The translations under genes and the position numbers were made by a program. From assembly GCF_963675165.1 (NCBI RefSeq), contig NC_087379.1, forward strand, positions 2,298,201-2,362,200: a stretch of DNA of 64,000 bases, written 5' to 3'. The notes under the pieces were generated by a model. That model searched no databases. It was not told the origin of the DNA and saw only the letters and a program-made list of their open reading frames with translations. Shown one piece after another: positions 38,307 to 63,411 of the stretch. The number at the start of each line of letters is the position of its first letter. Positions within the stretch are counted from its first letter, which is position 1. Source of the stretch: Halichondria panicea (Eukaryota > Porifera > Demospongiae > Suberitida > Halichondriidae).

Positions 38307-41300
38307 ATGAACTGTAAGTTATTAGCAATAGCAAAAATTATTTCTAGACCTTTAATTAATGACATCTCTGTACCTTGCATCCAGCTGTAGTGTTTCAAGT
38401 CTTCCTTTCCCTGGGGCTGATTTTCACTTTTTCTGCAAGCTGTAGCAGAAAGCTAATGGGTCAGTTGTCAGTTGATTGATGAATGTATATGATATATTTA
38501 CGGTGTATATATACCAGCTATACTTCTTCTTTGACGCAGCTAATGCATTGAATAAGAGATGCCTAGCTGAAGGAGAGCCAACTTCCTGTGATTGCCAAGC
38601 ACCTCTCCAGAGAGGCTCAATGGAATGGACAGGCAACAGCTCAGGTTATGTTTGCCCTGGGATCAACACTGGACAAGCCAATCTCATTGTATTTGCATTG
38701 GGAGAAACATGCTCTGCAGAGGGACAAAATGATGTATCATGTGGACCTTACTTTGCAAACATCACCTGCAACGAGAATGGCTACTTATCTGTTCTCTCCT
38801 TTACTGCTAACAGCAATATGAACGGTGGTACGATTCTATGCCAACAAAACCTAACTGGGGCAGAACCTTATCAACAATTCTCCATCAGAGTAGGAGGTAA
38901 TTACAAATCGCTTGAATTGTATACAAATCATTAATTTTATGCAGTTCGACCTTACCCACCGGCCCAAGCCAACCTGACTTTCCCGATGAACAGAAATCTT
39001 CAATTGGACTGGACTCCTCCGGCAAACCCAGTGATTGGTGGAATACGAGGCTACCTGTTGTATTTCTCTCCAGGTTGTGGCACCTGCTCACACTCAGAAT
39101 TAGTCAGTAATACGACCTTCACTGCTCTATGTAATGAATGGCAAGCTAATGGACAGACTTGTGTCTTTGAGGTCAGGACAGTGACAGAAGATTGTGGACT
39201 AGAGAGCCCCCCTCTCAGAAAAATCAGCATTATTGATGGTGAAATCATTGCATTCTGCATAATTATGCTTATAATTATGTCAAATTGCAGATACACGTCC
39301 TACTAACATCAGAGTCTCCATACTTTGCACAGTGGAAGTGGACCCTCGTACAATTCATGTGGAATGGAGTGTAAGCATGCAGCTATAAAAATATAGGTCG
39401 CAATTCCTTATATGTCCCTTAATTAATCCTATCGCTTACAGTTTGCATGGTATTTTTGCTTAGCTAGCCTTTATATAATTATAGGCACATGTTTAGTATA
39501 CCGTAACACATAGCTTCTACGCATACACACAATACACGCAGTACATTCCTCCCCAAGTTATCGATCCCAGTATGCTCCCAGAAGTCCAAGGTTTCACGCT
39601 CATAATATCAGATAACCGAACTGCCCGAAGACTGTTTCTCTCTGGTGCACAAGTTAGGGAACATTCTTTCAACTCCTCATTTCTCCAAGCTGCTAATTTG
39701 ACAGGAAATACCAACCTTATCTGGGTAGTAGCAGAAACAGCAGCTGACAGAATTCCTAGTGAATCAATTCTGTTTTCGGCGACAGGTAAAATACAATGTG
39801 TATAGTAATGCACCTGTATACATATTCCATATAACAACGTGTGAATTTTGGCAAGCATAAAAGCCCGTTCAATTAATAATGAATGTGCTGCGTTAGCTAT
39901 AGCCAGATGAAGTAGATGTATATCTGACCCATTTCCACCACATTTCAATGCAACAAATTTGCTGTAAATCAGCTAAAATTAGTACCTTAAAAACAATTAC
40001 CTGAAATCGCTAAATACTGAGTGCGGCCGGGTATGAAGTTTTGTTAAACATAAATGGAGAGCATAATGATTCATTATCCTCATGATCAAGACAAGAACCG
40101 CAAAATTAGTCATTAGATTCGAGGTAAGGTCGCTTTTAAGCTGAGACTATTTCCTGAAATATAGCCACCTCGCTATTCTGGCCAAGCTGCACTGTCCCAA
40201 GGGTAACTGGATTAACGACAGTCTACTGTAAATAGTAACGTTATAATTAATTAAGAGTTATGAAGTATCAAGCATGAGGGCGAATTGCCTGTATATATTG
40301 AATATTATAATTATTAATTATGGATTCTCATGCTTTATATCTTGAGGACCTCTTACCAAATCATGCCCTGAGGCTACGCGACCATGTAATAAAATAACAC
40401 GGAACGTTACACCCTTGTTTCCTTAACAATGTGCTATTATCCCGCTATTTGCAGATGAGTTGATCACTGGTATTGACCTAAGCCAAATTTTAACTGAGCA
40501 GCAGTGCGTACAAATCTCCATCAACAGCTTCTGTAAAAAGAGTGCAGCTTCCTTTCAAGTTCAACTCAGATTCTCCAGAGGCATTTGTGAGGATAATGCT
40601 GTAGAAACAACCACAAACAATTACACGCTACAGACAAATCACATAACGTGTATTCCTACAGAAAACTATTCGAATTGCTTCTCTGTTGTAGTCTATAATG
40701 ATGGAATGGAAATTGGTGCAAGTGATCAACAGCAGCTAATACTTTCTGAGTGTAACACAAGCTCTATAACTGCCTCTGGAGTCTGGTTTAACTCAACCAT
40801 GGGTCGAGTGTCTCTAGGAGATTCCGTCCCTCACAACACACAGCTGGATATTCACTGTAACCCTTATTGCCGCATGCTTGTCGGAGATAACAACACTCTT
40901 TGTATCAACGGAACTTTTGAGCCAGCTGGTAATGCTCGGTGTGACTGCTCTCCAGGTAATTTCATATTGTGCATGTGTACAGTTGATTCTATTTACCTTC
41001 TCTTTTTGTTACAGATACGGCAGATATTGATAGGTTGTTACTTATTTACTTCTTTGCCTCCATTCCGATGTATATTTGCATCTGTGGTATGATCCTATGC
41101 GGGTGTGGTGTGCACATATACGTATACGGTAGGTGTAACTTGTCATAATCTCATTATCACTTGTTTCACAGTTTATATTATATGCAGAATTTTTTGCGCC
41201 GTTGTTCACTGGTGAATACGATAGCTCGAGAGTGCCCCAATCTAGTACTCCTAATACAAATCGTCCTCGTCCCAAACAGAAGTTGGCCGGATCTAATTGT

Positions 41301-41909
41301 AGCCCCAAACAAAAGAATGTGTCAAGATCCAGAGTTGTACCCTTAACACCGATAATAGAAGAACCTACACCGTTAATAAAACTATCTTCTGCTGATACTG
41401 GTGGTCCTCGTCCCAGACAAAGGAAGGTGTTTGGATCCAAATGTATGCAATTAGAAATACCTATTACTAATCGTCCTCATCTCAAACAAAATAAGTTGTC
41501 CAGATCTGGTTCTGTACCACTAGAAGAATGTAATACTGATGATGGTTCTCCTCCTAAACTACAAAAGACGTTGTCCGTAGAAGTAGAAGTGCATGATACT
41601 GATGACACTTCTCATCGCAACCAAGAGAAGCTGTCTGAATCCATACAGCTAAAAGAAGTAGCTCCTGCTAGTACTGATGATGATCCCCGTCCCAAACAAA
41701 AGAAGCCGTCAGAATCCATACAGCTAAAAGAAGTAGCTCCTGCTAATACTGATGATGATCCTCGTCCTCGTCCTAAACAAAAGAAGTTGTCCAAACCCAG
41801 ACCAAATACTACTCAACCGAAACAAAAGAATTTGTATGAATCCAGATCACCATTGGCAGAAGTACCTAATACTGCTCGTCTCAAGTTGTCTGCATATAGA
41901 AGTGCGTGA
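38307..41909 (+). CDS. Receptor-like membrane protein A (Ig-like, 2x FN3, sushi-like, TM, repeat tail)
   Basis: First of three paralogues; function unknown, likely a cell-surface adhesion or recognition protein. Nine exons: 38307-38313, 38385-38459, 38540-38896, 38945-39238, 39291-39370, 39542-39785, 40455-40955, 41015-41128, 41188-41909; 797 residues. The 7-nt first exon ATGAACT was chosen because it is conserved before GTAAG in all three copies and puts the hydrophobic leader (VFQVFLSLGLIFTFSASC) in frame. Order: signal peptide 1-27; Ig-like 28-146 (SMEWTGNSS ... LSVLSFTANSN, NGGTILC); FN3 147-244 (LDWTPPANPVIGG, YLLYFS); second FN3 245-352, split by an intron; cysteine-rich module 353-519 ending in a sushi-like CNP...CDC part; membrane helix about 525-550; cytoplasmic tail 558-797 with RPRPKQK and VAPANTDDDPRPK repeats. 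More than ten N-glycosylation sequons lie in the ectodomain. Domain calls are by pattern only. Intron 6 is enlarged relative to B and C. Confidence 0.8.
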
Positions 41910-42323
41910 TACTGATAATAATCCTCGTCCCTAACTAGAGACTAGAAGTATGAGCTTAAGACTGTGATTAGTAGTTTATTTATCTAATAACTTTTTGTGA
42001 ATGTCAAAAGATTATTTTAGGAGGAGGACGTCTTATAATTGTTTCACATGTGTCCAGAGATTATTGCTAACCCTCTCTCCAATAAGCTATGGATCTACAC
42101 AGCACACTGTGTCGTTGTGTAATAGAAAACAACAATGTATGTACCTTATGTCTGATGAGGAATGGTGATGCTGCTTCTACTTGTACGCATGCGTTCAGCT
42201 CATGAGATAAATGGACGTGTTGGGGTTTGACTCGAGATTACAGCCTGCTCAACTGTGTGGTGTCATTATGGCATTCCATTATTATTCATTATCCTGAAGT
42301 ATAATTATCTCCTGAGAGAAGTG
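41910..42323. promoter_or_regulatory. Spacer between paralogues A and B, with the B 5' flank
   Basis: The first part is the decayed continuation of the A tail repeat after its stop (GATAATAATCCTCGTCCC). From about 42165 to 42323 the sequence resembles the 5' flank of C (59330-59488): GATGCTGCTTCTACTTGTA, CGCATGCGTTCAGCTCATG, CTCGAGATTACAGCCTGCT, GTGTGGTGTCATT and CATTATCCTGAA. That conservation outside coding sequence suggests a shared promoter, but recent duplication alone could explain it. Confidence 0.45.
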
Positions 42324-45300
42324 ATGAACTGTAAGTCAGCAACAGTAAATTACAATCTAGTCAAGCTTGTGTTTATTTTTTCAGCCCTGTAGCTAGCTGT
42401 TATAGGTCTATAGCAGAGCTATAGCAATTGCCAAGCTTATGTATTAATGGCTGCTCTGTGCTTTGCATCCAGCTGTATTGTTCCAAGTCTTCCTTTCCCT
42501 ACTACTGATTCTCAACCATTTTGCAAGCTGTAGCAGAAAGCTAACAGGTCAGTTGCCAGTTGATTGAATGCCGGGTAAAGACATTTATAATTGAATACCA
42601 TTTCACACACTCAGCTAATGCGAGCTGCCTGGCTGAAGGAGAGTCCATTTCCTGTGATTGCCAAGCACCTCTCCAGAGAGGCTCAATGGAATGGACAGGC
42701 AACAGCTCAAATTTTGTTTGCCCTGGAATCAACACTGGACAAGCCAATCTCATTGTATTTGCATTGGGAGAAACGTGCTCTACAGAGGGACAAAATGGTG
42801 CATCATGTGGACCTTACTTTGCAAACATCACCTGCAATGATAATGGCTACATATCTGTTCTCTCCTTCACTGCTAACAGCAATATGAATGGTGGTACGAT
42901 TCTATGCCAAAAACACCTAACTGGGGCAGAACCTTATCAACAATTCTCCATCAGAGTAGGAGGTAATTATGAAATGTATACCTTAAGGTGACATGATTAT
43001 TTTCACAAGTAGATTTGTTTGCGTTTTCACTGTTTAGCTCATTTTGCTATTATTAAATTCTGCTAAATCCTACTCAAGTTGTGTTATATAGTGTTTCTAC
43101 AAGTGACATTATCTGCGAGTATAAATTTTGCAATTTTACTCTCATTCGCAGAAATAGCAGAAATTAATACTCGCAAAAATATGTCACCTTAAGGTATATA
43201 GTTAATTGACTTTTTATGCAGTTCGACCTTACCCACCGGCCAAAGCCAACCTGACTTTTCCGATGAACAGAAATCTTCGATTGGACTGGACTCCTCCGGC
43301 AAATCCAGTGATTGTTGAACTACGAGGTTACCTGCTGTATTTCTCTCCAGGTTGTGGCACCTGCTCACACTCAGAATTAGTCAGCAATACGACCTTCACT
43401 GCTCTATGTAATGAATGGCAGGCAAATGAACAGACTTGTGTCTTTGAGGTCAGGACAGTGACAGAAGATTGTGGACTAGAGAGCCTTCCTCTCAGAAAAA
43501 TCAGCATTTTTGATGGTGACTTCATTGCATTCTGCATAATTATGCATAATTATATGCCATATTGCAGATACACGTCCTACTAACATCAGAGTTTCCATAC
43601 TTTGCACAGTGGAAGTGGATCCTCGTACAATTCATGTGGAGTGGAGTGTAAGCAAGTATAGTAGACACATGCACATGCACTGACAATTTATAAAGCATTC
43701 CTATTGATATAGCCTTTAACATCGTATCGTTATAGTAGTATAATCAGGAGTAGATACTTATGTTTTGAGCCATTATAGGGCACATCACATGTTCAGTATA
43801 CTATAACACATGGCTTCTACGCATACACACAATACATGCAGTACATTCCTCCCCTAGTTATCCACCCCAGTATGCTCCCAGAAGTCCAAGGTTTCACGCT
43901 CATAATATCAGATAACCGAACCGCTCGAAGACTGTTTCTCCCTGGTGCACAAGTTAGGGAACATTCTTTCAACTCCTCATTTCTCCAAGCTGCTAATTTG
44001 ACAGGAAATGCCAACCTTATCTGGGTAGTAGCAGAAACAGCAGCTGACATAACTCCTAGTGAATCAATTCTGTTCTTGGCGGCAGGTAAAATGCAATCAT
44101 GCATGTATATGAATACAGTATAGTATCCCACTGTTTATTCTTGAATGTGCAGATGAGTTGATCACTGGTATTGACTTAAGCCAAGTGTTAACTGAGCAGT
44201 GCGTACAAATCTCAATCAGCAGTTTCTGTAAAAAGAGTGCAGCTTCCTTTCAAGTTCAACTCAGATTCTCCAGGGGCTTTTGTAAGGATAATGCTGCAGA
44301 AACAACCAAACAAAATTACACGCTACAGGAAAACTACATGACCAGTATTCCTACAGAAAACTTTTCGAATTGCTTCTCTGTTGTAGTCTTTAATGATGGA
44401 ATGGAAATTGGTGCAAGTGATCAACAGCAACTAATACTTTCTGAGTGTAATACAAGCTCTATAAATGCCTCTGGAGTCTGGTTTAACTCAACCATGGGTC
44501 GAGTGTCTCTAGGAGATTCCGTCCTTCACAACACACAGCTGGATATTCACTGTAACCCTGATTGCCGCATGCCTGTCGGAGATAACAACACTCTTTGTGT
44601 CAACGGGACCTTTGAGCCAGCTGGTGATGCTCAGTGTGACTGCTCTCTAGGTAATTAATTTTCATTTATTGCATGTGTACGATAATCAAATTTTGCTTTG
44701 TTACAGATGAGGATAGGTTGTGGCATATTTTCTTCCTTGCCTCCATTCCGTTGCATATATGTCTCATTGGTATACTCCTATTCGTGTGTGGTCTGTACAT
44801 ATACGGTAGGTGTAACTTGTCATTAGTAGTATAAAATTATCACTTGTGTCACATGTGTGTGCATGTGAGTAGTATACACATGATCAGTACACAGCATATT
44901 AGGCCATGCAAAGTCAATTTGTAGCAAATAGCAAGTGGATTGAGGCATTTGATAAAATTAATATTAATTGTCAGTCATAATTATTTCATGGCCAAAAAAC
45001 CATACAAATTTGTGCCTTTAATTTGAGGTCACGTGATATTTAACTTTGTAAAGCTGCCAATTTCCAAGCGCGAGAGCCTAAGAAACTACAAATTGACTTT
45101 GCATGGCCTTAATAATGCTTTTTTATCTGCAGATTTTTTTGAGCCGTTCTTCACTGGTGAATATGATAGCCCGAGAGTGCCCCAATCTAGTACTCCTAAT
45201 ACTAATCGTCCTCGTCCCAAACAGAAGTTGGCCGGATCCAGTCCTAATATTAATGCTAATCGTAGTCCCAAACAAAAGAATTTGTCAGGATCCAGAGCTG

Positions 45301-45890
45301 TACCATCTATACCGCAATTGCAAATGAAACGAACTCCTCCTACTTCTGATGGTCTTCGTCCCGGACAAAGGAAGGTGTCTGGATTCAAATCTTTGAATTT
45401 TGAAGTTCCTGTTACTAATCGTCTTCATCCCAAACAAAAAACATTGTCCGGATCATCTATACAATTAGAAGAATTGTCCGAATCCAGTTCTGTACTACTA
45501 GAAGAATCTAATACTGAATTAGACAATCTTCATCTCAGACAAAGAAATTTATCCACTAGATCTGTACTGTTGGAAGAAGTATCTCCTCCTAATACTGATG
45601 ATTCTCATCCCAAACTAAAGACGTTGTCCGTAGAAGTAGAAGTGTATGATATTGATGATGATCCTCGTCCCAAAGAAGAGAAGCCGTCTGAATCCATACA
45701 GCTAATACAAGTAGCTCCTGCTAATACTGATGATGATCCTCGTCCCAAAGAAGAGAAGCCGTCTGAATCCATACATCTAAAAGAAGTAGCTCCTGCTAAT
45801 ATTGATGATGATCTTCGTTCTCGTCCTAAACAAAAGAAGTTGTCCAAACTCCGACCAAACACTGATCGTCCCAAACAAAAGAAGTTGTAA
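42324..45890 (+). CDS. Receptor-like membrane protein B (paralogue of A and C)
   Basis: Nine exons: 42324-42330, 42473-42547, 42615-42962, 43222-43515, 43568-43647, 43842-44085, 44153-44650, 44707-44805, 45133-45890; 800 residues. Same order as A: signal peptide MNSVLFQVFLSLLLILNH, Ig-like 28-143 (three residues shorter than in A and C near its start), FN3 144-241, FN3 242-349, cysteine-rich/sushi-like 350-515, transmembrane exon 516-548 (SIPLHICLIGILLFVCGLYIY), tail 549-800. The transmembrane exon and the intron before it differ from A and C, which resemble each other there. The tail contains KEEKPSESIQLIQVAPANTD repeats and ends RPKQKKL. No ITIM- or ITAM-like tyrosine motif is visible. Intron 3 carries an insertion absent from C. 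Confidence 0.8.
42977..43198. mobile_element. MITE with TATACCTTAAGGTGACAT ends, unique to paralogue B
   Basis: Left end TATACCTTAAGGTGACAT and right end ATGTCACCTTAAGGTATA are perfect inverses 222 bp apart. The matching intron of C goes straight from GAAATG to a GTTAATTGACTTTTTATGCAG-type acceptor region without it, so it inserted after the duplication or was lost from C. Confidence 0.8.
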
Positions 45891-46070
45891 GTGCTGATAT
45901 ACTGATGATAATCCTGGTCCCAAACTAATGAAGTACATGTAGTAACAACTAGAAGATTGTGATTAGTGATATTTGTAATTATAATTCATTTGTGCGCATG
46001 CCCAGTTCCATCTCCACCGATTAGGGGGCGTTCAGAGATATAATTTGTGGGTGGGGCTCAATGTAAAGAA

Positions 46071-46262
46071 TACCGTATAGCGCGAAATTTCAAGGCACTT
46101 ATATTTCGTGGATTGGCCTCTAAAAGCATTTTCGTCGCACAATGTTCGCGGAATGACTGCTTACCGGAAGCCACGCATTTAAAATCTTGCACGTTTCGTA
46201 GGATTGCTACCAACGAAATCCACGAAAATTAAGCCCCCTCGAAAATTTCGCGCTATACGGTA
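46071..46262. mobile_element. MITE with TACCGTATAGCGCGAAATTT ends
   Basis: 192 bp with inverted ends TACCGTATAGCGCGAAATTT and AAATTTCGCGCTATACGGTA, and GTGGATTGG/ATCCACGAAAAT subterminal inverses. The corresponding sequence downstream of paralogue C lacks it. Related ends (TACCGTATAGCGGG) bound the element at 56129-56463. Confidence 0.85.
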
Positions 46263-46273
46263 GCTACTGCACG

Positions 46274-46345
46274 TGCTGAACTCTGATGTGGAGTACTATA
46301 TAAATATGCGTGTAGTATATATATGAATCGAACATGAAGAAACAG
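46274..46345 (+). pseudogene. Truncated copy of the start of the gene at 63793
   Basis: TGCTGAACTCTGATGTGGAG, TACTATATA, GCGTGTAGTAT and ATGAATCGAACATGAAGAAA are shared with 63725-63803. The copy keeps the ATG (46334) and the codons for Met-Lys-Lys-Gln, then diverges at once and no membrane helix follows. It sits in the same position relative to B as the intact start does relative to C, so the duplicated unit reached into the next gene. Confidence 0.7.
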
Positions 46346-47398
46346 GGGGCATGTGATTCAGTAATGGTGTCCGTTCTGAGAGGTTATTTTCTATTGCTAA
46401 GGCTTTTTGGGGACTAGAAAGCTGCTCGTTATACGGAGTAGAGAGGTGGTCGCTCCTGAGAGGTTGCTAGTCATTGTAGTTTCAATCCGGATCTGAGCGC
46501 CGTTATATAGTGTGTAGTTGCTCTTCGGAGGTGGTTGTTAGGAGGTTCCACTGTAATTATGTTCCAGATCCATCTATACCTGCTATACCTGCCATCCACC
46601 ACATCATCATCCATGCATGTCACTACGCATGGATGGACTGTGTACATTGGCATGCCTGTGCTCAATACATTGTATTAGAAAACATCAATTCATCACAAAA
46701 TTTAATCATCATGATGCATGTAATGTATGTATATATAGGGATCGTCATCACCCCAGTGAAAATTGATATAGAATTGGTGGGGAAAAACTAGACTACAAGT
46801 GAAAAAAGTACATGTGACATGACGTTGTAACGGATTGCAATGGAGTTATGCTCTTGTCTGATTTCTTGTTTCCACGCTTTTTTGTGGGTCTTGATGTAGC
46901 AATCATGTTAAACTGCTACGACTCATTAACTAACAAGAGATATTAAGATAGACGCTGACTCAGCAGGATCGAAAAGGATCGATTTTTTGACTCATAATTA
47001 TGTCTTTATTTTTTTCTGTACTCTTGAGCACTTCCCTGCTTCAATCTCTACAAACGCCCCTGGAGTTAAAGCTTATTAAAAGCTTTCAGGAGTGATCATT
47101 AGCTTCTTTATCTTCAGCAATGACTTCCTGTCGAACATAAAGGCAAAGTTTGGTAGCAGAAGACTTGCCACAGCCTTGAACTGCACGTCATGCTTTTCCT
47201 ATAACATCTGTAGCCTTACAGTGTAGTGTAGGGTGTCGTCTTGGCTTGATACAATAAAGGGCGTAAGAACTCAGTTATCTTTGCATAATACTTCTATGTA
47301 ATGGACTGCAACTTTAGAATACAAAATAGTATACGGTTTATTTTACTGACAGTATCCACAAATACACAGATTACCATCTTTTGGGGTAATGTACGTGC

Positions 47399-47963
47399 AT
47401 GCGCATACAGGCCACTTTTCTCTTCGCGGCCTGGAATCGAAGCGAACCAGAGCTGCAACCTATCACTGGAGAAGCGCTCAGAGGTGCTACTTCTAACTCT
47501 CAGCCAGGCGCAAGACTGGACGTCGCTGCAAATGGGTTCTGGGGAGGACGCTTCCAAAAAACATATCTTGATGTCAGAGTATTCAACCCTTTTGCCCCCT
47601 CCAATTCTCACTCCAACCTTACAGCCTGCTACCGCAAACATGAATTAATAAAGAAACGTGCCTACGAGCAAAGGATAAAAGAAATTGAGAATGCCTCATT
47701 CACTATCTTTCCCACCGGAGGTCTTGCAGTTGAAGTGACTGTTTTTTACAAAGACTTGGCCTCCCTACTTGCAACGAAATGGATCAACTCTACTTCTCCA
47801 CCCTGTCCTGGCTACGCTGCCGCCTAAATTTCTCTTTATACTAAGATCAGCAATCCAGTGCATTCGTGGGACCCGCTCAAGCGCTGGTCAAGCCATGAAG
47901 ACACAGCCCCCTATGGACCTGGCTATGTCAGCTCTTGATCAACTGAACTCAGCATCAACATAG
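47399..47963 (+). mobile_element. Decayed retroelement C-terminal domain
   Basis: The frame gives GARLDVAANGFWGGRFQ, YLDVRVFNPFAPSN, CYRKHELIKKRAYEQRIKEI and FPTGGLAVEVTVFYKDL. It must then shift frame twice to give FSTLSWLRCRLNFSL and LRSAIQCIRGTRSSAG. This domain is familiar from repetitive retroelement proteins of sponges and cnidarians, where it follows a reverse transcriptase; no polymerase motif is present here. Frame breaks near 47800 and 47840 show it is dead. A run of about 15 A at 48049-48063 may be the retroposed 3' end. Confidence 0.6.
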
Positions 47964-48239
47964 TAATTATTTTTCCCCATTATTTTTCCCATTATTTTAT
48001 CTAGCTTTGTATCTCACCCTCTAACCTTCACATGAAGTATTATTGCTCAAAAAAAAAAAAAAAGGCTAGCATAAAAGCTAGTTCCCGGGTAAAGCGTCTG
48101 TTAGGCCACTAAAAGAGAAACACGAGAAATACCGGAAGTGAAATTAAATAATGGGCGTGGCAATAGGAGTGGCGCAGCGAGGTCCAATTTGCTAGCGGGT
48201 TCTGTGCCTGCATGCATGGTGCTGTAATCACTGAACTGA

Positions 48240-50940: not shown

Positions 50941-51648
50941 ACACGAAACAATCTGCATGGTAGATACAATAACCATAGCAACATCGTGCAAGAATTCTAG
51001 AATAAACTCATGCATATAATTATAGGCACTCTTTTTTATTCGAACACCTAAATTTCATGTGGAACACAATCTGCTTCTCTCAGTATAATTATGCTCTATA
51101 TAGTGCATCGTATACAACTTTAAATTAAATTTTTAACCGTGCTGTTTTAATTCCAATGCATAATTATAATTATTGTGAAACACAGCTAGCTCACAACCTC
51201 ACGTTTTAGCTTAATACTCTTATACTTTATAATTATTGGGAAGTACATGTATATTTATAGGATTATAACTACGTGACTACCTATAAGTACAATTTCTTTT
51301 GGATAACATTGTTCAATAAAATTCAAACAAAATCCTGCATGGCTATATAGCCTATAATTATATACACAGGATCATAGGCTTTTGTTTCACTTCCATGCAG
51401 TGTCACTATTAAGACTAACATGCAATAATATACATGCATGCAGTCTCACAACAAGTATATATACTGATCTCCTTTACATAATTATAATACTATAGCAAAA
51501 CACATTTGTACACTGGAAGTAAGCACTGTCTGTTGAACTTTACCTGGCAGAGCAGTATGACATGCAGCATGCATGGGTCTATAATTGTACATTAACTATA
51601 ATTATAGTTTAATTTTACTACAAAGGCAGTAAAAAACCTGTAAAGCTA

Positions 51649-52055
51649 AATTTCTCTTTTAGTGTGAACCCGCTGGGCCTCACACTAAAAGAGAAATTTT
51701 ACACCAGAAGTGTTTTGCATGTTCAGGCACTGTGTTACACATATCTATATCATTACCACACCATTTTTAAGTACCACAGACGGTCAGAGACCAACAGCAC
51801 CAGTAACAATTTGTACAGCTACATTTTTCTTTTAGTGTGAACTTGCGGACCTCACACTAAAAGAGAAATTTTACACCAGAGGTGTTTTGCATGTTCAGGC
51901 ACTGTGTTACACATATCTACATCATTACCACACCATTTTCAAATACCACAGACGGTCAGAGACCAACAGCATCAGTAACAATTTGTATACAGATACATTT
52001 CTCTTTTAGTGTGAACCTGCAGACCTCACACTAAAAGAGAAATTTACACTTGAGG
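51649..52055. repeat. About 2.3 tandem units of 175 bp, each with a hairpin
   Basis: Three starts, at about 51649, 51823 and 51998, each read TTTCTCTTTTAGTGTGAAC, then about 10 bases later the inverse CACACTAAAAGAGAAAT. Two full units follow with GTGTTTTGCATGTTCAGGCA, CATTACCACACCATTTT and ACCACAGACGGTCAGAGACC; the third is cut after the hairpin. No coding capacity. Confidence 0.85.
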
Positions 52056-52506
52056 GTGTTTTGCACGTTAGCTCTCAAACAGTGTAGTGATGTATAGACC
52101 CATACATGTCATAAACAATTCCTATATATAATTATAATAAAGCTCATGGAAAAACCAGTGACACCATGCACTCCCATTTTTTTGCAGCCTAGCTGAGCTA
52201 CATCTACATCTAGTGATCTAGCTCATGATTGATCCATACTTTACTGACAATGCCAGAGAAAACTTTGGAACTGGAAAGGATTAGCTACAATTTAACCGCT
52301 GGACAGAGTATAGCATCTGATTGTCTAGGACCTTCTTGAGACTGCATGCATGGCGTGCATGCATGTATATGTATGTAAGCTACCCTGCCAGGTACCTAGT
52401 GAGACTAGAAACTCCTTGAACAGAAGTCTAACCAGAATAAAACCAGTCACTGGCAGCATAGATAGCTCTATCTATATATGCTGGTACACTAGTGTTAATG
52501 TGGTAC

Positions 52507-53596: not shown

Positions 53597-54047
53597 CAAC
53601 GTGAAAATCTATCGAAACCCCCATTTCAACAGTCTGAATAATCATACATGTATCATCTTTCTATGTGGACTAGTTATGTATACCGTGCGATAATATAATA
53701 GCAAGTTTTATATTGAAGTCTATATCCATTTATATAGATGCAGCCATTCCTTTGTCAGTTTACTAGTGCCTATACTTTTACGTCACGTTTAATTACATTG
53801 AAAGGGGCTGGCCAGGTGACTACGTATACCGCCATGTAACGGCTTATCTTCATCTCTTTCCCCTAGATAGAAAGGGCGTATTTTCCAGTCTATTGAAACT
53901 TAATGTTGGCATCTGGCAATGGCATGCAGTAACTATACATTGTATAAATTCAGCTTATTAATAGAGATTGAAAAATACTTAGCTATCAAGCATTTTGGGG
54001 CCATTAATAATAACAAAGTTGATGTCCTATGATACCCTAAGTCTCGT

Positions 54048-54208
54048 ATTACCAGCCGTTCTCGTTAGTAGCCTATAGGGCTGCATGGTAATATGAGACA
54101 AAATTAGGAATCTCCCTGATTGCATAGAGTATCATGTCTCAGTTTCATATTATTACCATGCAGCCCTATAGGCCCCTCCCAGACTACTAATGAGAACGGC
54201 TGGTAATA
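54048..54208. repeat. Foldback element of about 160 bp
   Basis: The left arm ATTACCAGCCGTTCTCGTTA, continuing to CCTATAGGGCTGCATGGTAA, is inverted at the right and ends ACGGCTGGTAAT. Arms are about 60 bp with small mismatches. No reading frame. Confidence 0.8.
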
Positions 54209-55053
54209 CTTCATACCAAGGATTCCTTGTTAAAAGTGCTTCTATCTACATATACTATTGCATGCTTTAAGTTTAGAGCTGCCTGATATAAAAATAAACA
54301 TTGCACATTCACAACAAAACACACACCGGCTATAAAACAACACACACATTATTATAAGGCTTCAACCAGCTAAAGTTAGCATTTTCCATGTAGAAGTCCC
54401 TAGTACTTATCAACCGCATAAAAGTATAAACGAAGCCATAATTTACCACATATCGGGTCGAACTCAACGCAAATATAGACTTTAATTCTGTAACAGGATG
54501 ACCACACGTGCTGATCGAACCCACAAGTTTGTGGTTAATGGGCAGGGAATGTACCATCATATAGTCCATCCATAGCTATTGTAACAACCTATAAAGTGTC
54601 AATTGATATAATGCATGATTGACTTGTTGTTTGTTTGAATTGTTGAGTAAAAGTATTTACACAATAAATTATAGCTACAATGTTTTAGTAATAAATATAC
54701 TGTGTACAAATTATAATGCATGGTGTCTATAGATTATATAATTATACATGTCATACATATACATATACATGTACGTACGTACGTAGGAGCGGGTGGTTGA
54801 ATGTATGTGCACAAAAATGGGGTGACATTACATCTTAAATTAACAGTTACTAATTATAGGCACACATGCAGAATGAGCTACATCCACGAGTCCTCTTGTG
54901 ATGGCTCCTCTTTCGCTCTCTTTTTCTCTTTTTTTATCCTTTTGCTGCCGGAAAATATGGTTTTTGGTGAATATTAACCTGCATGTACAAAATAAACTGT
55001 GCATGCATGGGTACTGTTACTACTGTACCAGATCAGTCTATACATATATATGT

Positions 55054-55574
55054 ATCAAAACTAAAAAACATTTGCAATGTGAACGTTGCTAGGATTGCCA
55101 GGAAAAGAAAAGCGCGAAAAAGCGAAGAAACAAGAAATTCGGCGAGTGCATAACTCCAATCCGTTACAACTTCATTCACATGTACTGTTTCAATTTTTTG
55201 TTCGTTTTGTGCTTTTCCTGGCCAATCCTTCAGTAATTTTTATCATAATAATTATAATTACATTGTATAGTGAATTTTTTGCAAGCTATATAATGTTTGT
55301 GATGTTTTCCCTTACAGTGTTGAGCAAACATGCAAGTGTTGGATGTGTGGGTGGATGATTGTGAATTCAGTTATTCGCCATTCATTTTTACCCAACTTGT
55401 ATTTTGATTCTAAAATCATTATCAACAGTAGGCCACTCGGCTGTACATGTTCATGGCGTTGTAACGGATTGGAGTTATGCACTCGCCGAATTTCTTGTTT
55501 CTTCGCTTTTTCGCGCTTTTCTTTTCCTGGCAATCCTAGCAACGTTCACATTGCAAATGTTTTTTAGTTTTGAT
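55054..55574. mobile_element. Foldback element with long (about 120 bp) inverted repeats
   Basis: The left arm starts ATCAAAACTAAAAAACATTT and includes GAACGTTGCTAGGATTGCCA; the right arm is its inverse. The two arms encode the same spurious frame start (MLGLPGKEKREKAKKQEIRR) on opposite strands. The core of about 260 bp has no clear frame. A damaged single arm lies near 46823. Confidence 0.8.
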
Positions 55575-56128
55575 TCCCTTTCTTTTTTCATTACAGTAGT
55601 ACATTAATGATAAGATAAATGTGACGTTGATTAATTTGTCATCGTCCTGTAATCTTGTTGAAGATAATAATTATATAAGTGGTCGTTGGACAGAAGTATA
55701 TTATACTCTTCAATAATGAAAGTGAAATACCTGAAGAGGAACATCAAGAAGCAAGAGAAGTTCAAGAAGAGAAGACAGGACTGGAATAAACATTATTATT
55801 TTATTCAGCATCTATGTGATAAAATGACAGCCATGTTTATACTATACAGTGGCGTAGGAAGCACGGGTGCTCAGGGTGCTGGAGCACCCCCTTATCTCAA
55901 GCTACCTTACCTACTTGCTCCATGAAGTTCAGAGCAGCTAGCTAGAAGTCCAGCTAGTAGCTAGCTATTAGTTACTAAGCTAGCTATACTAGCATAGTTA
56001 CGTACACAGTACAAAGGTCAGCTAGATGAACCACATCGTAGATATCTCTTATAAAGAGCAAGCACATTGCGAATCTGCAACAAGTAAGTCTCCTCTCATT
56101 ATGCCTTGGTGCGCATGCGCAAGCGAGG

Positions 56129-56463
56129 TACCGTATAGCGGGTATATTTCGAGGGTATAAATTTTCGCAGATGGACCATTACAAAGGATTTCGCGGATTT
56201 TATTTTCGTGGTCTGAGTTCCAGCCTTTTGGCGCATGCGCACATCAACATGTAGCTGTTACCACCACACCGTTAGCCTCGAATCCAGGCCTAGCCTATAA
56301 CGGTGAGGCACCTCTTATTGTCGATAGGTGTGGTCAATAATACTGAACACGCCTACTATTCAATAAAGATATAAATTTTCGTGGGTATAAATTTTCGCGG
56401 TAGAGGCTCAATCCGCGAAAACCGCGAACATTTATACCCTCAAAATATACCCGCTATACGGTA
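56129..56463. mobile_element. MITE with TACCGTATAGCGGG ends
   Basis: The left end TACCGTATAGCGGGTATATT is inverted at the right to CCCGCTATACGGTA, with TTTCGAGGGTATAAATTTTC-type subterminal inverses. A TAGCCTCGAATCCAGGCC piece is nested at about 56274. Adjacent to it on the right is a dispersed-repeat copy (56465). Confidence 0.8.
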
Positions 56464-56464
56464 T

Positions 56465-57000
56465 ACGGTAGTGTGTTTGTGTGTCTGTGTGTGTGTGTGT
56501 CTGTGTAGACTGCTACAGCTGCTCAAGGATGAATCAAGTGCAAGTAAGAGTTTCTATAGGCTTCTAGTCATGTTTACTTGGATTCTAATTCGTGGATTTG
56601 CAAAATAATGCTTCATTCTCGAGTTATGCCTAGTTTTGCTTACTTGGAATGCCATTGCAGTTTTTTTAGAAGAGCACGTAGCCAAACTTGTTTACCGAGT
56701 GTTGCTACTCTACTTAGTAGTTAGCTCTGCACTAGAACGCTAGCTATTGGTAGCTGCAAGAGTGAGAAGAGAGCTGCAAGGCTCTGCTGATGGCAGCCAT
56801 TAATTTTAGACTTGAACTTTTGGCATCGATCGTTTTAACAACAATCATGGTCGATCATTACCCACTCTCTGAGTTTTTGCATGCAGCAAAATTTAATTGT
56901 TTTGCATAAAAGCTATTAGTAGCAGCTTTATGTTATGTAGCTTTGACATCTCCACCGAGGCATCAGCACCTGCGGTGCTTTCATTTTTGACATTAATGGT
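56465..57000. repeat. Dispersed repeat family, longest copy
   Basis: Contains the full series of blocks seen in part elsewhere: GTGTGTCTGTGTAGACTGCT, AGGCTTCTAGTCATG, AATTCGTGGATTTGCAAAAT, GGCATCGATCGTTTTAACAA and GAGGCATCAGCACCTGCGGT. Useful as the reference copy for 16379, 23481, 28300 and 59090. Confidence 0.65.
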
Positions 57001-57352
57001 AGCCATGAACAGCTACTAAAGAGGGTAGCTAGACTATAGATCAAGTGTAATTGGATCCTAAATAGACATGCTGTAGTTAAAACGTTCGTTTTCTTCACTG
57101 CGAAGATTAAAACGTTCCTCCGAAGTACAATGACACATGCAATGCAATTTTTTTTATTGTATATTCATACCCACTTAACAGATTCTATAGATTTAAAGTA
57201 TATAGCATAAAAATTTTGATACTGATAATTTTATACCAAATTTGCTCAGAATTAATCTCCGGGAATGTAGAGTGCCAAAATTTTCCTGGGGCAAGCCCCC
57301 GGACCCCCAGATTTGTAAAGCACCCTTACAAAAACATCTTCCTACTCCTCTG

Positions 57353-57727
57353 CTATATACTGTAGATGTACTTCCAAGTGCAAAAGCATGGAGGCCTATG
57401 GCTATGGTATATCCAGTCAATGCATATGTCTAGCATAAATAGCATACCTGAAGTGAGAGAGAATGGAGAGCTGAGCTGAAGAAAGGAGGCTTGTGTTATC
57501 GATGTCAAAGCCACGCCCACCTCATAAGTTGCCATATGCGCTGCCAGAGGAGGTTGGACACGATCACGTGCACCACTTTTTTTGCTGAGCTGGCACAAAA
57601 ATTGACAAATGAGTTCTATGTAAACTTTTAGCTGGTGTTGCACGGTCATTAGAGACTGAAGGCAAACTTTATGTGCCTCGCTGGCTTCTTTTGATATAAA
57701 ACTTTCATTAACCAACCCGATCCCCAC
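57353..57727 (-). CDS. Unrecognised 124-residue open frame
   Basis: Opens MGIGLVNESFISKEASEAHK and ends CTWKYIYSI-stop. I recognise no domain. It lies in repeat-rich DNA, partly over a G-rich MITE-like block (57240-57330), and no splice partners were found. Chance frame is the likelier explanation. Confidence 0.15.
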   Translation of the reverse strand: MGIGLVNESFISKEASEAHKVCLQSLMTVQHQLKVYIELICQFLCQLSKKSGARDRVQPPLAAHMATYEVGVALTSITQASFLQLSSPFSLTSGMLFMLDICIDWIYHSHRPPCFCTWKYIYSI

Positions 57728-59089
57728 CGATCCCCTTTATTCTGGCGAGTTATCAGTGCATACAGTGTTTACTAGATTCTTGACAGCCAGTACAATGCAA
57801 GCTTCATACAGCACTGCTAAACTATACTCTACCCTATAGTCTAGCTAATCTTGGTCCAGCCAGACAACAGACACAGCTAGTCCGGTGTTACAAGTCAGTA
57901 AAGCAAGAGTATCCATAACTTTTTTATTACAGTTATTCGGTATCTATGGTAACGTGAGCAGAGACCTTAGGAATGTCACATGATTGATGACGCGTGGCCA
58001 ACCTCCTCTGTGTTGCTGTGGCGGAATTGCGTAGGTAAGAAAAGTAGAGCCTGAGAGGTCATTTGCCTCTTGGAAGCGAACGCAATTCTGAGAAAAACGC
58101 CCATGGTCCGGATTCTAGTCGACTAGAGGCTGTATCTAGAATCTTCTGAAGATGTCTGTACAAGGAGGAAATGCTTTTCAAGAAAGTTACTTACTTACTT
58201 ACTTACTAACTTACTTAGTCAGTCAGACAAAACGCTGTGAAATATGAAAATAGTGCAATTTTTCAAATATCAATAGTAATGCATGAGAATATTCATTGAC
58301 TATAATTTCACACATTTAGACAGATAAAAGGCTAACTAAGCTATCTGTCAACTCAGTTTCTTGCTGTGGCCCTTTCCTGCAGAAATAGAGCAGTCTAAAC
58401 ACGAGTCAAAATTTGCAATTTCCACAATACATGTACCTGGTACAACAATCAAATTTGTGGATTTTGCACAAAATTTGTGATCTATATCACATCTTTCAAA
58501 CAAGATACATATACTCTTGGCTCTATTGAGGTGAGGGCTTATTCAATGTTGTACTACTGTATTAAAGTACGCACGAACTCTTGATTTGTTTTAGTTATAA
58601 ATAGTTGATGAGATATATATGGTGGTAGAACTCGTGCGCATCTTTGTTATGTCAGAACAATTATAGTTGTACTTTTTATTGCAGAAACTCTATGATGATG
58701 GTGGAGTCAGTGGATCCCGTCGGACATTAATTAAACCCCCTCATCGACAGTTCACTGTTTCTATCACCACACACCCTGCATGTTTAACGTTTAAGTTATA
58801 AATTATCTCTTACAAATTTGCCTTCATGATTGTGTTGCGTTGCAGCTACTTGTACGTCAAAAAGTGATTCAGCATTGATACACGCACACATAGCATAGCA
58901 GTTATTTGCAGAGTCCTGAAGGGACAATTATAATAAGGAACTTCTTCTTTATATAGCTCAGGCTAAGTGGCTCATCATTAGCCACTTAGCCTCAGTACAA
59001 CCACTGCACTATCCTGGAAGGGCAGCTAATTCATGAAGAGTATTGAGTCAATTCGCGAACTTTGACCTAGGCTAACCTTCTGGATTTAA

Positions 59090-59330
59090 CGCCACTAGCT
59101 AGCTAGCTGTTTTAACAGATATTTTCTAACTCTTGTAGCTAACAAAAAGCTAGCACTTTAGTGCAAGGCTAACTCGAATAGAAAGTTTGTGCGGAATAGA
59201 TGATGCTATGAAAGATTCTGAAGAGACTGCAACAGCCTTCAATGTGAGTCAAACTAGCCATAAAACTCGAGAAAGATGCTAATCCACGAATCAAAATCCA
59301 AGAGAACATGGCTAGAAGCCGTTGCGATGC
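59090..59330. repeat. Dispersed repeat family, reverse copy
   Basis: Reads as the reverse complement of about 23630-23885: TAGCTAACAAAAAGCTAGCA, AGTGCAAGGCTAACTCGAAT, AGATTCTGAAGAGACTGCAA and CGAATCAAAATCCAAGAGAA. It abuts the 5' flank of paralogue C. Confidence 0.7.
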
Positions 59331-59488
59331 TGCTTCTACTTGTAATTGTGCGCATGCGTTCAGCTCATGCCTTTTAATTGTTGCGTGTCTCGAGATTACA
59401 GCCTGCTTCAAACGTGTGGTGTCATTGTGGCTCTTCTGCCTTCCTGATCATTATCCTGAACTTAGAAATATATCTCCCGAGAGAAGTG

Positions 59489-62400
59489 ATGAACTGTAAG
59501 TCGAGTCAGCAATAGTAAATTAGTCAGCTTGTGTTAATTTTTTCAGCCCTGTAGCTAGCTGTTATAGGTACCAACTGCTTGTATGTATTAATCAATGGCT
59601 GCTCTATATGCTTTGCATCCAGCTGTATTGTTCCAAGTCTTCATTTCCCTACTATTGATTCTCAACCATTTTGCAAGCTGTAGCAGAAAGCTAACAGGTC
59701 AGTTGCCAGTTGATTGAATGTATATGCTGGGTAAAAGACATAATTGAATACCAGTTAATTGTTTTACTCACTCAGCTAATGCATTGAATGAGAGCTGCCT
59801 GGCTGAAGGAGAGCCAACTTTCTGTGATTGCCAAGCACCTCTCCAGAGAGGCTCAATGGAATGGACAGGCAACAGCTCAACTTTTGTTTGCCCTGGGAGC
59901 AACACTGGACAAGCCAATCTCATTGTATTTGCATTGGGAGAAACGTGTTCTGCAAAGGGACAAAATGATGCATCATGTGGACCTTACTTCGCAAATATCA
60001 CCTGCAATGATAATGGCTACTTATCTGTTCTCTCCTTCACTGCCAACAGCAATATGAATGGTGGTACGATTCTATGCCAACAAAACCTAACTGGGGCAGA
60101 ACCTTATCAACAATTCTTCATCAGAGTAGGAGGTAATTATGAAATGTGTAAGCTTATACACACAGTTAATTGACTTTTTATGCAGTTCGACCTTACCCAC
60201 CGGCCAAAGCCAACTTGACTTTTCCGATGATCAGAAATCTTCGATTGGACTGGACTCCTCCGGCAAACCCAGTGATTGGTGGAATACGAGGCTACCTGCT
60301 GTATTTCTCTCCAGATTGTGGCACCTGCTCACACTCAGAATTAGTCAGCAATACGACCTTCACTGCTCTATGTAATGAATGGCAGGCAAATGGACAGACT
60401 TGTGTCTTTGAGGTCAGGACAGTGACAGAGGATTGTGGACTGGAGAGCCCTCTTCTCAGAAAAATCAGCATTTTTGATGGTGACTTCATTGCATTCTGCA
60501 TATGCATATATTTATGTCAAATTGCAGGTACACGTCCTACTAACATCAGAGTCTCCATACTTTGCACAGTGGAAGTGGATCCTCGTACAATTCATGTGGA
60601 ATGGAGTGTAAGCAAGTAGTAGACACATGCACATGCACTGACAATTTATAAAGCATTCCTATTGATATATATAGCCTTTAACATCGTATCGTTATAGTAG
60701 TATAATCAGGAGTAGATACTTATGTTTTGAGCCATTATAGGGCACATCACATGTTCAGTATACTATAACACATGGCTTCTACGCATACACACTACATGCA
60801 GTACATTCCTCCCCAAGTTATCCACCCCACAACGCTCCCAGAAGTCCAAGGTTTCACGCTCATAATATCAGATAACCGAACTGCTCGAAGACTGCTTCTC
60901 CCTGGTGCACAAGTTAGGGAACATTCTTTCAACTCCTCATTTCTCCAAGCTGCCAATTTGACAGGAAATGCTAACCTTATCTGGGTAATAGCAGACACAG
61001 CAGCTGACAGAATTCCTAGTGAATCAATTCTGTTTATGGCGGCAGGTAAAATACAATCATGCATGCATATATGAATACATGTATACTGTCATGCATGCAG
61101 TAATAATAATTATAGTATCCCACTGTTTATCTTGAATGTGCAGATGAGTTGATCACTGGTATTGACTTAAGCCAAGTGTTAACTGAGCAGTGCGTACAAA
61201 TCTCAATAAACAGTTTCTGCAAAAAGAGTGCAGCTTCCTTTCAAGTTCAACTCAGATTCTCCAGGGGCATTTGTGAGGATAATGCTGTAGAAACAACCAC
61301 AAACAATTACACGCTACAGACAAACTACATGACGTGTATTCCTACAGAAAACTATACAAATTGCTTCTCTGTTGTAGTCTTTAATGGTGGAATGGAAATT
61401 GGTGCAAGTGATCAACAGCAGCTAATACTTTCTGAGTGTAACACAAGCTCTATAACTGCCTCTGGAGTCTGGTTTAATTCAACCATGGGTCGAGTGTCTA
61501 TTGGACATTCCGTCCCTCACAACGCACAGCTGGATATTCACTGTAACCCTTATTGCCGCATGCTTGTCGGAGATAACAACACTCTTTGTGTCAACGGAAC
61601 TTTTGAGCCAGCTGGTAATGCTCGGTGTGACTGCTCTCCAGGTAATTTCATATTGTGCATGTGTATACAGTTGATTCTATTTATACCTTCTCTTTTTGTT
61701 ACAGATGAGGATAAGTTGTTACGTATTTACTTCTTTGCCTCCATTCCGATGTATATTTGCCTCTGTGGTATGATCCTATGCTGTTGTGGTGTGCACATAT
61801 ACGGTAGGTGTAACTTGTACTATTTCACTTGTTTCACAGTGCATCGTAATACACATTGCAGACTTCATGCTGAGTATATTTTTATTATTACTATCTACAG
61901 AAGTTTTTGTATGGTTGTTCACTGGTGAATTTACTACCCCGAGATATGCTGAATATGGTAACGAGGAAGCGCCCCCATCTAGTAATCCTACTACTTATCG
62001 TCCTCGTCCCAAACAGAAATTGGCCGGATCCAGTCCTAATATTGATGCTCATCGTAGTCTCAAACAAAGGAATTTGTCAAGATCCAGATCTGTACAATCT
62101 ATACCGCACATGAAACTAACTCCTCCTACTCCTGATGGTCCTCGTCCCGGACAAATAAGGAAGGTGTCTGGATCCAAATCTGTGCATCTTGAAGTACCTG
62201 GTACTAATCGTCTTCGTCCCAAACAAAAAACATTGTCCGGATCCAGCTCTATACAATTAGAAGAATTGTCCGATTCCAGTTCTGTACTACTAGAAGAATT
62301 AGACAATCTTCATCTCAGACAAAGAAATTTGTCCGCTAGATCTGTACTGTTGGAAGAAGTATCTCCTCCTAATACTGATGATTCTCATCCCAAACTAAAG

Positions 62401-63411
62401 ACGTTGTCCGTAGAAGTAGAAGTGTATGATACTGATGATGATCCTCGTCCCAAAGAAGAGAAGCCGCCTGAATCCATACAGCTAATACAAGTAGCTCCTG
62501 CTAATATTGATGATGATCCTCGTCCCAAAGAAGAAAAGTTGTCTGAATCCATACAGCTAGCTCCGGCTAATACTAATGATAATCCTTGTTCCGAAGAAGA
62601 GACTCTGCCGTCTGAATCCATACAGTTAAAAGAAGTAGCTCCTGCTAATATTGATGATGATCCTCGTCCTCGTCCTAAACAAAAGAAATTGTCCAAACCC
62701 CGACCAAACGTTAATACTACTCATCCCAAACAAAAGAAGTTGTCCGTACATAGAAGTGCTGATACTGATGATGATCCTCGTTCCAAAGAAGAGAAGCCAT
62801 CTGAATCCATACTGCTAATACAAGTAGCTCCTGCTAATACTGAAGATGATCCTCGTCCCAAAGAAGAGAAGCTAATACAAGTAGCTCCTGCTAATACTGA
62901 TGATGATCCTCGTCCCGAAGAAGAGACTCTACCGTCGGAATCCCTAAAAAAAGTAGCTCCTGCTATTACTGAAGATGATCCTCGTTCCAAAGAAGAGAAG
63001 CCATCTGAATCCATACAGCTAATACAAGTAGCTCCTGCTAATACTGAAGATGATCCTCGTCCCAAAGAAGAGAAGCCGTCTGAATCCATACTGCTAATAC
63101 AAGTAGCTCCTGCTAATACTGAAGATGATCCTCATCCCAAAGAAGAGAAGCTAATACAAGTAGCTCCTGCTAATACTGATGATGATCCTCGTCCCGAAGA
63201 AGATACTCTACCGTCGGAATCCCTAAAAGAAGTAGCTCCTGCTATTACTGAAGATGATCCTCGTTCCAAAGAAGAGAAGCCATCTGAATCCATACAGCTA
63301 AAAGAAGTAGCTCCTGCTAATACTGATGATGATCCTCGTCCTCGTCCTAAACAAAAGAAGTTGTCCAAACCCCGACCAAAAACTGATCGCCCCAAACAAA
63401 AGAAGTTGTAA
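59489..63411 (+). CDS. Receptor-like membrane protein C (longest cytoplasmic tail)
   Basis: Nine exons: 59489-59495, 59623-59697, 59776-60132, 60186-60479, 60528-60607, 60802-61045, 61144-61641, 61705-61803, 61901-63411; 1054 residues. Order: signal peptide 1-27; Ig-like 28-146; FN3 147-244; FN3 245-352; cysteine-rich and sushi-like 353-518; transmembrane exon 519-551 (SIPMYICLCGMILCCCGVHI); tail 552-1054. The tail is twice as long as in A and B because of repeats of the type DDDPRPKEEKPSESIQLIQ followed by VAPANT. It opens EVFVWLFTGEF and ends RPKQKKL. Every domain-bearing exon group starts and ends in phase 1. Alternative start: an ATG at 59595 is also in frame with the leader in this copy only, which would give a longer N-terminus without the mini-exon. 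Function is unknown. Confidence 0.8.
62802..63291 (+). repeat. 279-bp higher-order repeat inside the paralogue C tail exon
   Basis: The block beginning TGAATCCATACTGCTAATAC at 62802 starts again at 63081, and the following order of sub-repeats (KEEKLIQ, EEETLPSES, AITEDDPRSKEEK) recurs at the same spacing to about 63291. The period of 279 bp is 93 codons, so the frame is kept. Each block consists of four units of about 20-25 codons, themselves repeats of the DDDPRP motif. Confidence 0.9.

Follow-up and report, generated by a model that had tools for sequence, protein, structure and literature searches.

What is to be made of three neighbouring genes that encode much the same ectodomain and end in tails of very different length? 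They lie in a 64-kb stretch of DNA, the whole of which is here called the window, and the ends of the span 38307–63411 coincide with the modelled start codon of the first, A, and the stop codon of the third, C (Table 1). In our view the three probably arose by recent tandem duplication in branch M of a large receptor family, as single-pass surface receptors whose serine-rich repeat tail is peculiar to them and which stand apart from the pairing and the tyrosine motifs found among their relatives. If the DNA is that of a sponge, the family would supply named genes for probing self/non-self recognition at the root of the animal tree. The trio offers a naturally occurring example of one ectodomain joined to a cytoplasmic tail that is new and growing.

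How sound are the genes? That there are three paralogues of nine exons, as a sequence-only reading had proposed, is borne out: GT and AG bound 24 of the 24 introns, the intron phases (1,1,1,1,0,1,1,1) are common to all three models, and the 2.4–3.2 kb of modelled coding sequence is without stop or frame break in A, B and C alike. This counts against the trio, or at least A and B, being decaying copies on the way to becoming pseudogenes, an explanation that we consider very unlikely even though several features favour it. The candidate first exon is a putative micro-exon of 7 nt (ATGAACT). C has a second in-frame start, and a relative at 2.820 Mb of contig C3 starts at the corresponding place, but in A and B, read by eye, that place lacks an in-frame ATG, which leaves their starts dependent on the putative micro-exon. 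At C3 2.832 Mb a sister copy is already interrupted by stops and frame breaks, and dN/dS in the membrane exon and tail of the trio is near or above 1, without significance.

Comparison of the copies with one another weighs further against decay. Across signal peptide and ectodomain their identity is 0.885 (A–B), 0.909 (A–C) and 0.893 (B–C), so that the closeness remarked on by eye stands and the ‘near-identity’ does not; dS between copies is ~0.1, as fits the local expansion that had been suggested. For exons 2–8 dN/dS is 0.58, 0.40 and 0.64 in the three pairs (p 0.009, 2e-5 and 0.051), i.e., below 1 clearly for A–B and A–C, and at the borderline for B–C. Gaps in the tail alignment are multiples of three in 24 of 26 cases, against 16 of 50 in introns 2–8 (Fisher p 4e-7), and the two exceptions, of 11 and 301, together make 312. 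The in-frame indels and the dN/dS below 1 in exons 2–8 support protein coding. For the tails dN/dS is 0.98–1.62, none different from 1: their reading frame shows constraint but their amino acids do not, and they may serve simply as spacers. In no ectodomain exon of the trio does dN/dS exceed 1. Local shifts in identity between copies suggest gene conversion.

Table 1. Genes A, B and C and their modules in the window
Feature	Position	Strand	Description	Basis
Gene A	38307-41909	+	nine exons, 797 aa	modelled GT-AG introns, same phases
Gene A, exons 1-9	38307-38313, 38385-38459, 38540-38896, 38945-39238, 39291-39370, 39542-39785, 40455-40955, 41015-41128, 41188-41909	+		
Gene B	42324-45890	+	nine exons, 800 aa	modelled
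Gene B, exons 1-9	42324-42330, 42473-42547, 42615-42962, 43222-43515, 43568-43647, 43842-44085, 44153-44650, 44707-44805, 45133-45890	+		
Gene C	59489-63411	+	nine exons, 1054 aa; alternative in-frame start 59595	
Gene C, exons 1-9	59489-59495, 59623-59697, 59776-60132, 60186-60479, 60528-60607, 60802-61045, 61144-61641, 61705-61803, 61901-63411	+		
Exon 3	C 59776-60132; A 38540-38896; B 42615-42962	+	Cys-rich Ig-like module	12-member alignment, weak PDB Ig matches
Exon 4	C 60186-60479; A 38945-39238; B 43222-43515	+	first FN3 module	17-member profile
Exons 5+6	C 60528-61045; A 39291-39785; B 43568-44085	+	possible second FN3-like module, phase-0 intron inside	position and length only
Exon 7	C 61144-61641; A 40455-40955; B 44153-44650	+	Cys-rich module of ~100 aa, then Sushi/CCP-like	12-member profile, relatives
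Exon 8	C 61705-61803; A 41015-41128; B 44707-44805	+	single transmembrane helix	hydropathy
Exon 9 of A	41188-41909	+	repeat tail, 239 whole codons	5 anchors
Exon 9 of B	45133-45890	+	repeat tail, 251 whole codons	9 anchors
Exon 9 of C	61901-63411	+	repeat tail, 502 whole codons	18 anchors

Of what are the ectodomains built? The layout is signal peptide, Ig-like, FN3, FN3-like, Cys-rich plus Sushi, membrane helix and tail, with 14–15 N-glycosylation sequons and 24–25 Cys per ectodomain. By hydropathy each protein has one hydrophobic segment apart from the signal peptide, in agreement with the one helix, and the single-pass layout, already proposed. A Pfam scan of residues 1–771 of C yields nothing at E up to 1, and so the domains were reached through relatives. 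For exon 4 a profile of 17 homologues matches fibronectin in the PDB at E 9.5e-8, and other FN3 proteins too, which places it among FN3 modules; taken alone, the trio's exon reaches Pfam fn3 at E 0.018, and relatives L023 and L025 at E 3e-4 to 6e-4, all below cut-off. The end of exon 7 belongs with Sushi/CCP, both by its profile, which matches complement factor H (E 8e-5, profile positions 111–157), and by relatives L024, L025 and L031, where Pfam Sushi is above cut-off; Pfam gives no Sushi in the frames of L012, L019, L030 and L032, nor in the trio alone. While FN3 and Sushi are thus upheld, the Ig module of the sequence-only reading is plausible but weak: the PDB matches of the exon-3 profile are headed mostly by Ig chains, but partially aligned and at best at E 0.006, and 0 of 12 exon-3 members match a Pfam Ig family. 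Exons 5 and 6 have no Pfam match, and SRCR is absent from the Pfam scans done.

Adhesion proteins often contain Ig, FN3 or Sushi modules, and many adhesion and matrix proteins (fibronectin, neogenin, tenascin, contactin) are found among the best 60 PDB matches of exon 4, alongside titin. Might the trio then be adhesion or anchoring proteins, with an ectodomain that grips matrix or neighbouring cells, a long charged tail that ties it to the cell cortex, and no part in recognition or immunity? The lack of any ectodomain exon with dN/dS above 1 would suit this, as would the lack of tyrosine motifs in exon 9 described below, and we consider it possible though rather doubtful. What weighs against it is the company that the trio keeps. 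The family, counted after merging by hand, occupies 52 places in the 131-Mb genome, on C1, C3, C8 and C9, and its size and clustering, along with the pairs, the broken copy and the local shifts in identity, recall recognition families more than housekeeping adhesion genes.

The sequences place A, B and C inside branch M as copies made recently in tandem, a young offshoot of this large family. The exon-4 tree groups the trio with the C3 2.820 Mb gene (97/92), and these with four C8 genes (98/98). It included only one partner from a second receptor lineage, P; the exon-3 tree placed the P partners, with all nine M rows in one group (95/95) and all five paired P rows in another (96/95), and so strengthened the pairing result. 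The C8 0.809 gene is inside M by exon 3 and outside it by exon 4. At five of the seven other M loci M faces P head-to-head, with 544–740 bp between their exons 3 and, at four of the five pairs, ~285–430 bp between candidate start codons. Between M and P partners the exon-3 trees show partial agreement, and the pair thus seems to have been duplicated as one unit. For the trio no P exon is found within the 64-kb window at E 1e-3, so that two receptor families side by side, of the Botryllus FF/FcoR type, are a feature of those M loci and not of the trio. The 52-place family, its mostly head-to-head M/P lineage and the odd-one-out tail had all been missed by the sequence-only reading.

Do the relatives have the means to signal? 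In 17 of their tails, cut by eye from open frames rather than taken from spliced models and with near-copies counted separately, there are 11 ITIM-type motifs, spread over seven tails (shuffles give 1.83; p 2e-4), together with 20 YxxPhi (shuffles give 7.39); such ITIM-type motifs are a further point against adhesion pure and simple. The ITIM-bearing tails are five of seven for C1, one of five for M, none of three for paired P, one of one for other P and none of one for C9. Of the five paired P tails three were read: all three lack a full ITIM, and YxxPhi occurs in two of them; among four paired M tails one has an ITIM (C8 0.874), one a tyrosine outside any motif and two none. On these counts a rule of silent M and signalling P was rejected, and tyrosine signalling within the M/P pairs themselves is poorly supported.

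Of the tails read, those of the trio stand apart from the rest. With one intron-split codon added to the whole codons of each, the lengths agree with the ~240, 252 and 503 codons first given. The unit is a degenerate tandem repeat of ~25 aa, serine-rich and charged; genome-wide at E 1e-3 the tail of B matches A, B and C only, and Pfam offers no family for exon 9 of A and none below E 4.8 for that of C. Among the nine tyrosines of the trio's exon 9 none is in an ITIM ([SILV]xYxx[ILV]) and none in YxxPhi; PxxP occurs once or twice per tail. A receptor tyrosine kinase was also considered and rejected, since Pfam, run on all three tails in full and up to E 10, matched no kinase, and each modelled gene stops with exon 9, without a kinase domain after the membrane helix. 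SH3-, 14-3-3- and AGC-kinase-like motifs were looked for by eye, and nothing is claimed of them. Could an M ectodomain that has neither tyrosine motif nor P partner be a decoy, a non-signalling member of a paired receptor system that competes for the ligand of its signalling relatives? That seems quite unlikely, as the tail stays in frame and lengthens rather than being lost, and at C3 2.820 Mb the sister gene likewise has a tail free of tyrosine, so that motif loss may predate the trio.

If A, B and C are, as we favour, receptors of branch M with a tail of their own, the partner bound by the ectodomain, itself rich in glycosylation sites, would sit on another cell, on a microbe or in the matrix. 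Some family members would relay the signal through ITIM- or YxxPhi-type tyrosine motifs, and M is mostly encoded back to back with a P receptor, probably on one shared promoter. The trio appears to have departed from that arrangement, and its probably disordered tail, serine-rich, charged and enlarged by 25-aa units, would most likely be an arm for multi-site phosphorylation and docking, toward the cortex or Ser/Thr kinases. A bolder version, tentative and in our estimate unlikely, takes the whole as a paired-receptor recognition system arranged in the manner of FF/FcoR, in which M and P, with ectodomains of Ig-like, FN3 and Sushi type, were duplicated head-to-head on shared promoters, part of the family signals by ITIM and some places lie beside Calx-beta genes; the trio would then be an escaped, fast-evolving branch that swapped tyrosine signalling for a growing serine-repeat tail.

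What known systems are comparable? The activating and inhibitory paired receptors of vertebrates have related ectodomains, different tails, ITIM-type motifs and tandem copies, and are likened here by description; the present family differs by having FN3 and Sushi modules and by its head-to-head pairing. In Botryllus schlosseri the fuhc locus has many loci of fester (FF) and fester co-receptors (FcoR) in neighbouring pairs of two receptor families; FcoR is single-pass with Ig plus Sushi, fester has three membrane helices and no known signalling motif, and ITIM and YxxI/L/V are present in one family of the pairs (PMC12065747). The likeness is one of layout, in the many loci, single-pass proteins with Sushi and a candidate Ig module, paired lineages and ITIM-type motifs; here, however, FN3 intervenes between Ig-like and Sushi, M and P are head-to-head, and motifs are not cleanly divided between partners. 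Hydractinia Alr is likewise a clustered single-pass family, with many pseudogene-like copies and low identity within the family (PMC11067881), and ITIM/ITAM motifs are reported for its candidate genes (PMC12065747); it is again alike in layout. For Alr an Ig relation is confirmed by AlphaFold and allele matching is known (PMC11067881), while the Sushi module and repeat tails set the present family apart. Sponges express Ig, FN3 and Sushi domain genes, some of which shift on microbial challenge, and their repertoires are given as domain counts, often with SRCR, in contrast to the SRCR-free scans here; in the portions of that literature available, no Ig-FN3-Sushi-TM family is described and no receptor family with ITIM-type tails and head-to-head pairs is named, in accord with the earlier judgement that this architecture is not a described one (PMC6208332, PMC4772301, PMC12723187).

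Lastly, a listed Calx-beta match lies no more than 50 kb from nine of the 52 places, where rotation gives 1.39 (p 0.02), with the distance picked post hoc, C5 and other contigs without a receptor place excluded, and a list of 150 scored from 645 candidates to which one match below the Pfam cut-off was added. Calx-beta is a domain of sponge aggregation factors, and the linkage is a lead only.

The three genes are real, and their models are good except for the first exon. Gene modelling gives three nine-exon genes on the plus strand, A, B and C, whose products of 797, 800 and 1054 amino acids each have a signal peptide and one membrane helix. All 24 of 24 introns are GT-AG and their phases, 1,1,1,1,0,1,1,1, are identical across the trio. 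The three nine-exon paralogues and the single helix per protein described in the sequence-only reading are borne out. The extracellular modules lie in exons with phase-1 introns on both sides, a pattern termed 'class 1-1' that is described for shuffled extracellular modules in animals (PMC8001218), and the sole phase-0 split falls inside a possible second FN3-like module (exons 5 and 6). For exons 2-8, tested against 1, dN/dS is 0.58 for A-B (p 0.009), 0.40 for A-C (p 2e-5) and 0.64 for B-C (p 0.051). Synonymous divergence of only 0.09-0.12 makes the three young duplicates, in keeping with the local expansion that had been proposed. The weak point is at the 5' end, where the models of A and B depend on a first exon of 7 nt, ATGAACT; in C an in-frame ATG lies upstream of the modelled exon 2, at the place where a sister gene at 2.820 Mb of contig C3 also starts, and reading by eye found no in-frame ATG at the matching place in A or B.

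What are the modules? On their own the trio sequences gave no match above the Pfam cut-off. With E up to 1 as the limit, an exon 4 profile built from relatives matched 159 PDB sequences, fibronectin at E 9.5e-8 and titin and others at still lower E among them, and by this profile exon 4 is an FN3 module. Pfam Sushi is above cut-off in three stretches holding relatives (L024, L025, L031) and absent from the frames of four others (L012, L019, L030, L032), the end of exon 7 being assigned as Sushi-like via the former. Aligned members share an Ig-like Cys, Trp, Cys pattern in exon 3, which is a putative Ig-like module with thin statistical support. Exons 5 and 6 and the opening 100 aa of exon 7 carry no domain assignment. 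Of the Ig/FN3/sushi-like ectodomain first proposed, the FN3 and Sushi-like parts stand, both through relatives; the Ig part is statistically thin.

The trio belongs to a sizeable family, whose members are probably recognition receptors. Searching the genome (131 Mb, 39 contigs) with trio exons 4, 3 and 7 and exons of three relatives gave, when merged by hand, 52 places, some of which may be fragments or two exons from one gene, the search counts being lower bounds for large families. Within the window no other members were found: C exon peptides of at least 20 aa (all but exon 1), searched at E up to 0.1, hit A, B and C and nothing else.

Lineages here are groups on unrooted trees of 21 sequences. 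In the exon-4 tree the trio groups with the C3 2.820 Mb gene (support 97/92), and these with four C8 genes form branch M (98/98), the C8 0.809 gene lying outside on a very long branch; the exon-3 tree places all 9 of 9 M rows, that gene included, in one group (95/95). The same tree puts the 5 of 5 paired genes of a second receptor lineage, P, in another group (96/95) and the 5 remaining P genes in a third (94/90). On C3 2.82-2.83 Mb and C8, M on the minus strand faces P on the plus strand at 5 of the 7 loci that lie beyond the window (5 of 8 if the genes at 0.767 and 0.773 Mb are taken separately rather than as one). The two exons 3 of a pair are separated by 740, 725, 544, 630 and 643 bp, and in the four pairs with both seen the candidate start codons are some 285, 368, 400-420 and 430 bp apart. 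The exon-3 tree joins the M gene at C8 0.874 to that at 0.910 as sisters (98/97), and likewise the P partner of the former, at 0.875, to that of the latter, at 0.911 (100/97), matching relations that are expected under duplication of the pair as a unit. Not all copies are intact: a broken M copy, sister to the trio, has stops and frame breaks, though the P gene facing it is open in exons 3 and 4, and in the P gene at C3 2.8216 the frame from the candidate start diverges from that of its near-copy. The trio has no P partner within the window, where P-lineage exons 3 and 4 gave no match of their own at E up to 1e-3.

The trio tails, encoded by exon 9, consist mostly of copies of a degenerate unit, some 25 aa long, whose core resembles RPKQKKLS or RPKEEKPSES and whose anchors number 5 in A, 9 in B and 18 in C by one regular expression; 75-bp DNA repeats are present in all three, and a genome search with the B tail at E 1e-3 finds nothing outside the trio. 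Alignment gaps are divisible by three in 24 of 26 cases in the tails versus 16 of 50 in introns 2-8 (p 4e-7), and among the trio dN/dS does not differ from 1 in the tail (0.98-1.62), so that the reading frame is kept while the sequence drifts; nor does it differ from 1 in the membrane exon (1.29-3.42). None of the exon 9 tyrosines (3 in A, 2 in B, 4 in C) lies in an ITIM or YxxPhi motif. Tails of 17 relatives, delimited by eye within open frames, contain 11 ITIM-type motifs, in 7 of the tails (shuffled mean 1.83, p 2e-4), and 20 YxxPhi (shuffled mean 7.39, p 2e-4), p values that are optimistic since near-copies are counted separately. Tails with ITIM number 5 of 7 on C1, 1 of 5 in M, 0 of 3 in paired P, 1 of 1 in other P and 0 of 1 on C9.

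Botryllus fester genes adjoin, and are co-expressed with, a cognate co-receptor of Ig, Sushi, Ig, Ig, helix and a tail that can carry ITIM or hemITAM (PMC12065747), and Hydractinia Alr is a clustered Ig-related gene family (PMC11067881). The likeness to the Botryllus system is one of layout, and we claim membership of no known system for it. Studies of sponges describe Ig, FN3 and Sushi genes, part of them responding to microbial challenge (PMC6208332), SRCR joined with Ig and FN3 (PMC4772301) and domain counts in an Antarctic species (PMC12723187), and invertebrate IgSF is reviewed in PMC11999971. No described family with the trio's layout was found in the literature, most subscription papers being outside the search, so absence is unproven.

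At 348 sites two of the three copies are alike, and the permutation p is 2e-4, the test floor, for each of three segments (see table), with sites taken as independent and the result depending on intron alignment. These identity shifts point to gene conversion or nested duplication as their likely source.

Coordinates of features (window positions unless a contig is named)
Feature	Position	Remark
Window in genome	C3:2298201-2362200	
Trio	38307-63411	plus strand
ATG of C	59595	in frame
Segment in C	60615-61205	B and C alike at 79/96 sites, 47/47 in intron 5
Segment in C	61269-61927	A and C alike at 76/117 sites, 14/15 in intron 7
Segment in C	61782-61961	A and B alike at 30/64 sites
Intron 3 of B	42963-43221	259 bp
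Tandem repeat between B and C	51639-52069	172 bp, 2.5 copies
Long (AC)n repeat	~13100-13760	appears as H/T and V/C open frames and GC-skew dip
Family places	C1 7.8-12.9 Mb; C8 0.75-0.92 Mb; C3 2.34 and 2.82-2.83 Mb; C9	
Broken M copy (L010)	C3:2831198-2833099	minus strand
Calx-beta exons among or beside receptor genes	C1 7.76-7.98 Mb; C3 2.810-2.834 Mb (L009 1709-1963)	
Calx-beta match	C6:2382998-2383231	inside 10,065-codon open frame
Calx-beta array	C2:272025-277757	

Intron 3 is 48 bp in A and 53 bp in C, and the insert in that of B, whose ends by eye resemble inverted repeats, is perhaps a small transposon. Among the matches listed, 9 of 52 receptor places are within 50 kb of Calx-beta (rotation mean 1.39, p 0.02, a comparison chosen post hoc). 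The C2 stretch holds, again among the matches listed, 12 Calx-beta matches of closely similar scores, 11 of the 12 spaced about 406 bp apart as a regular coding tandem array.
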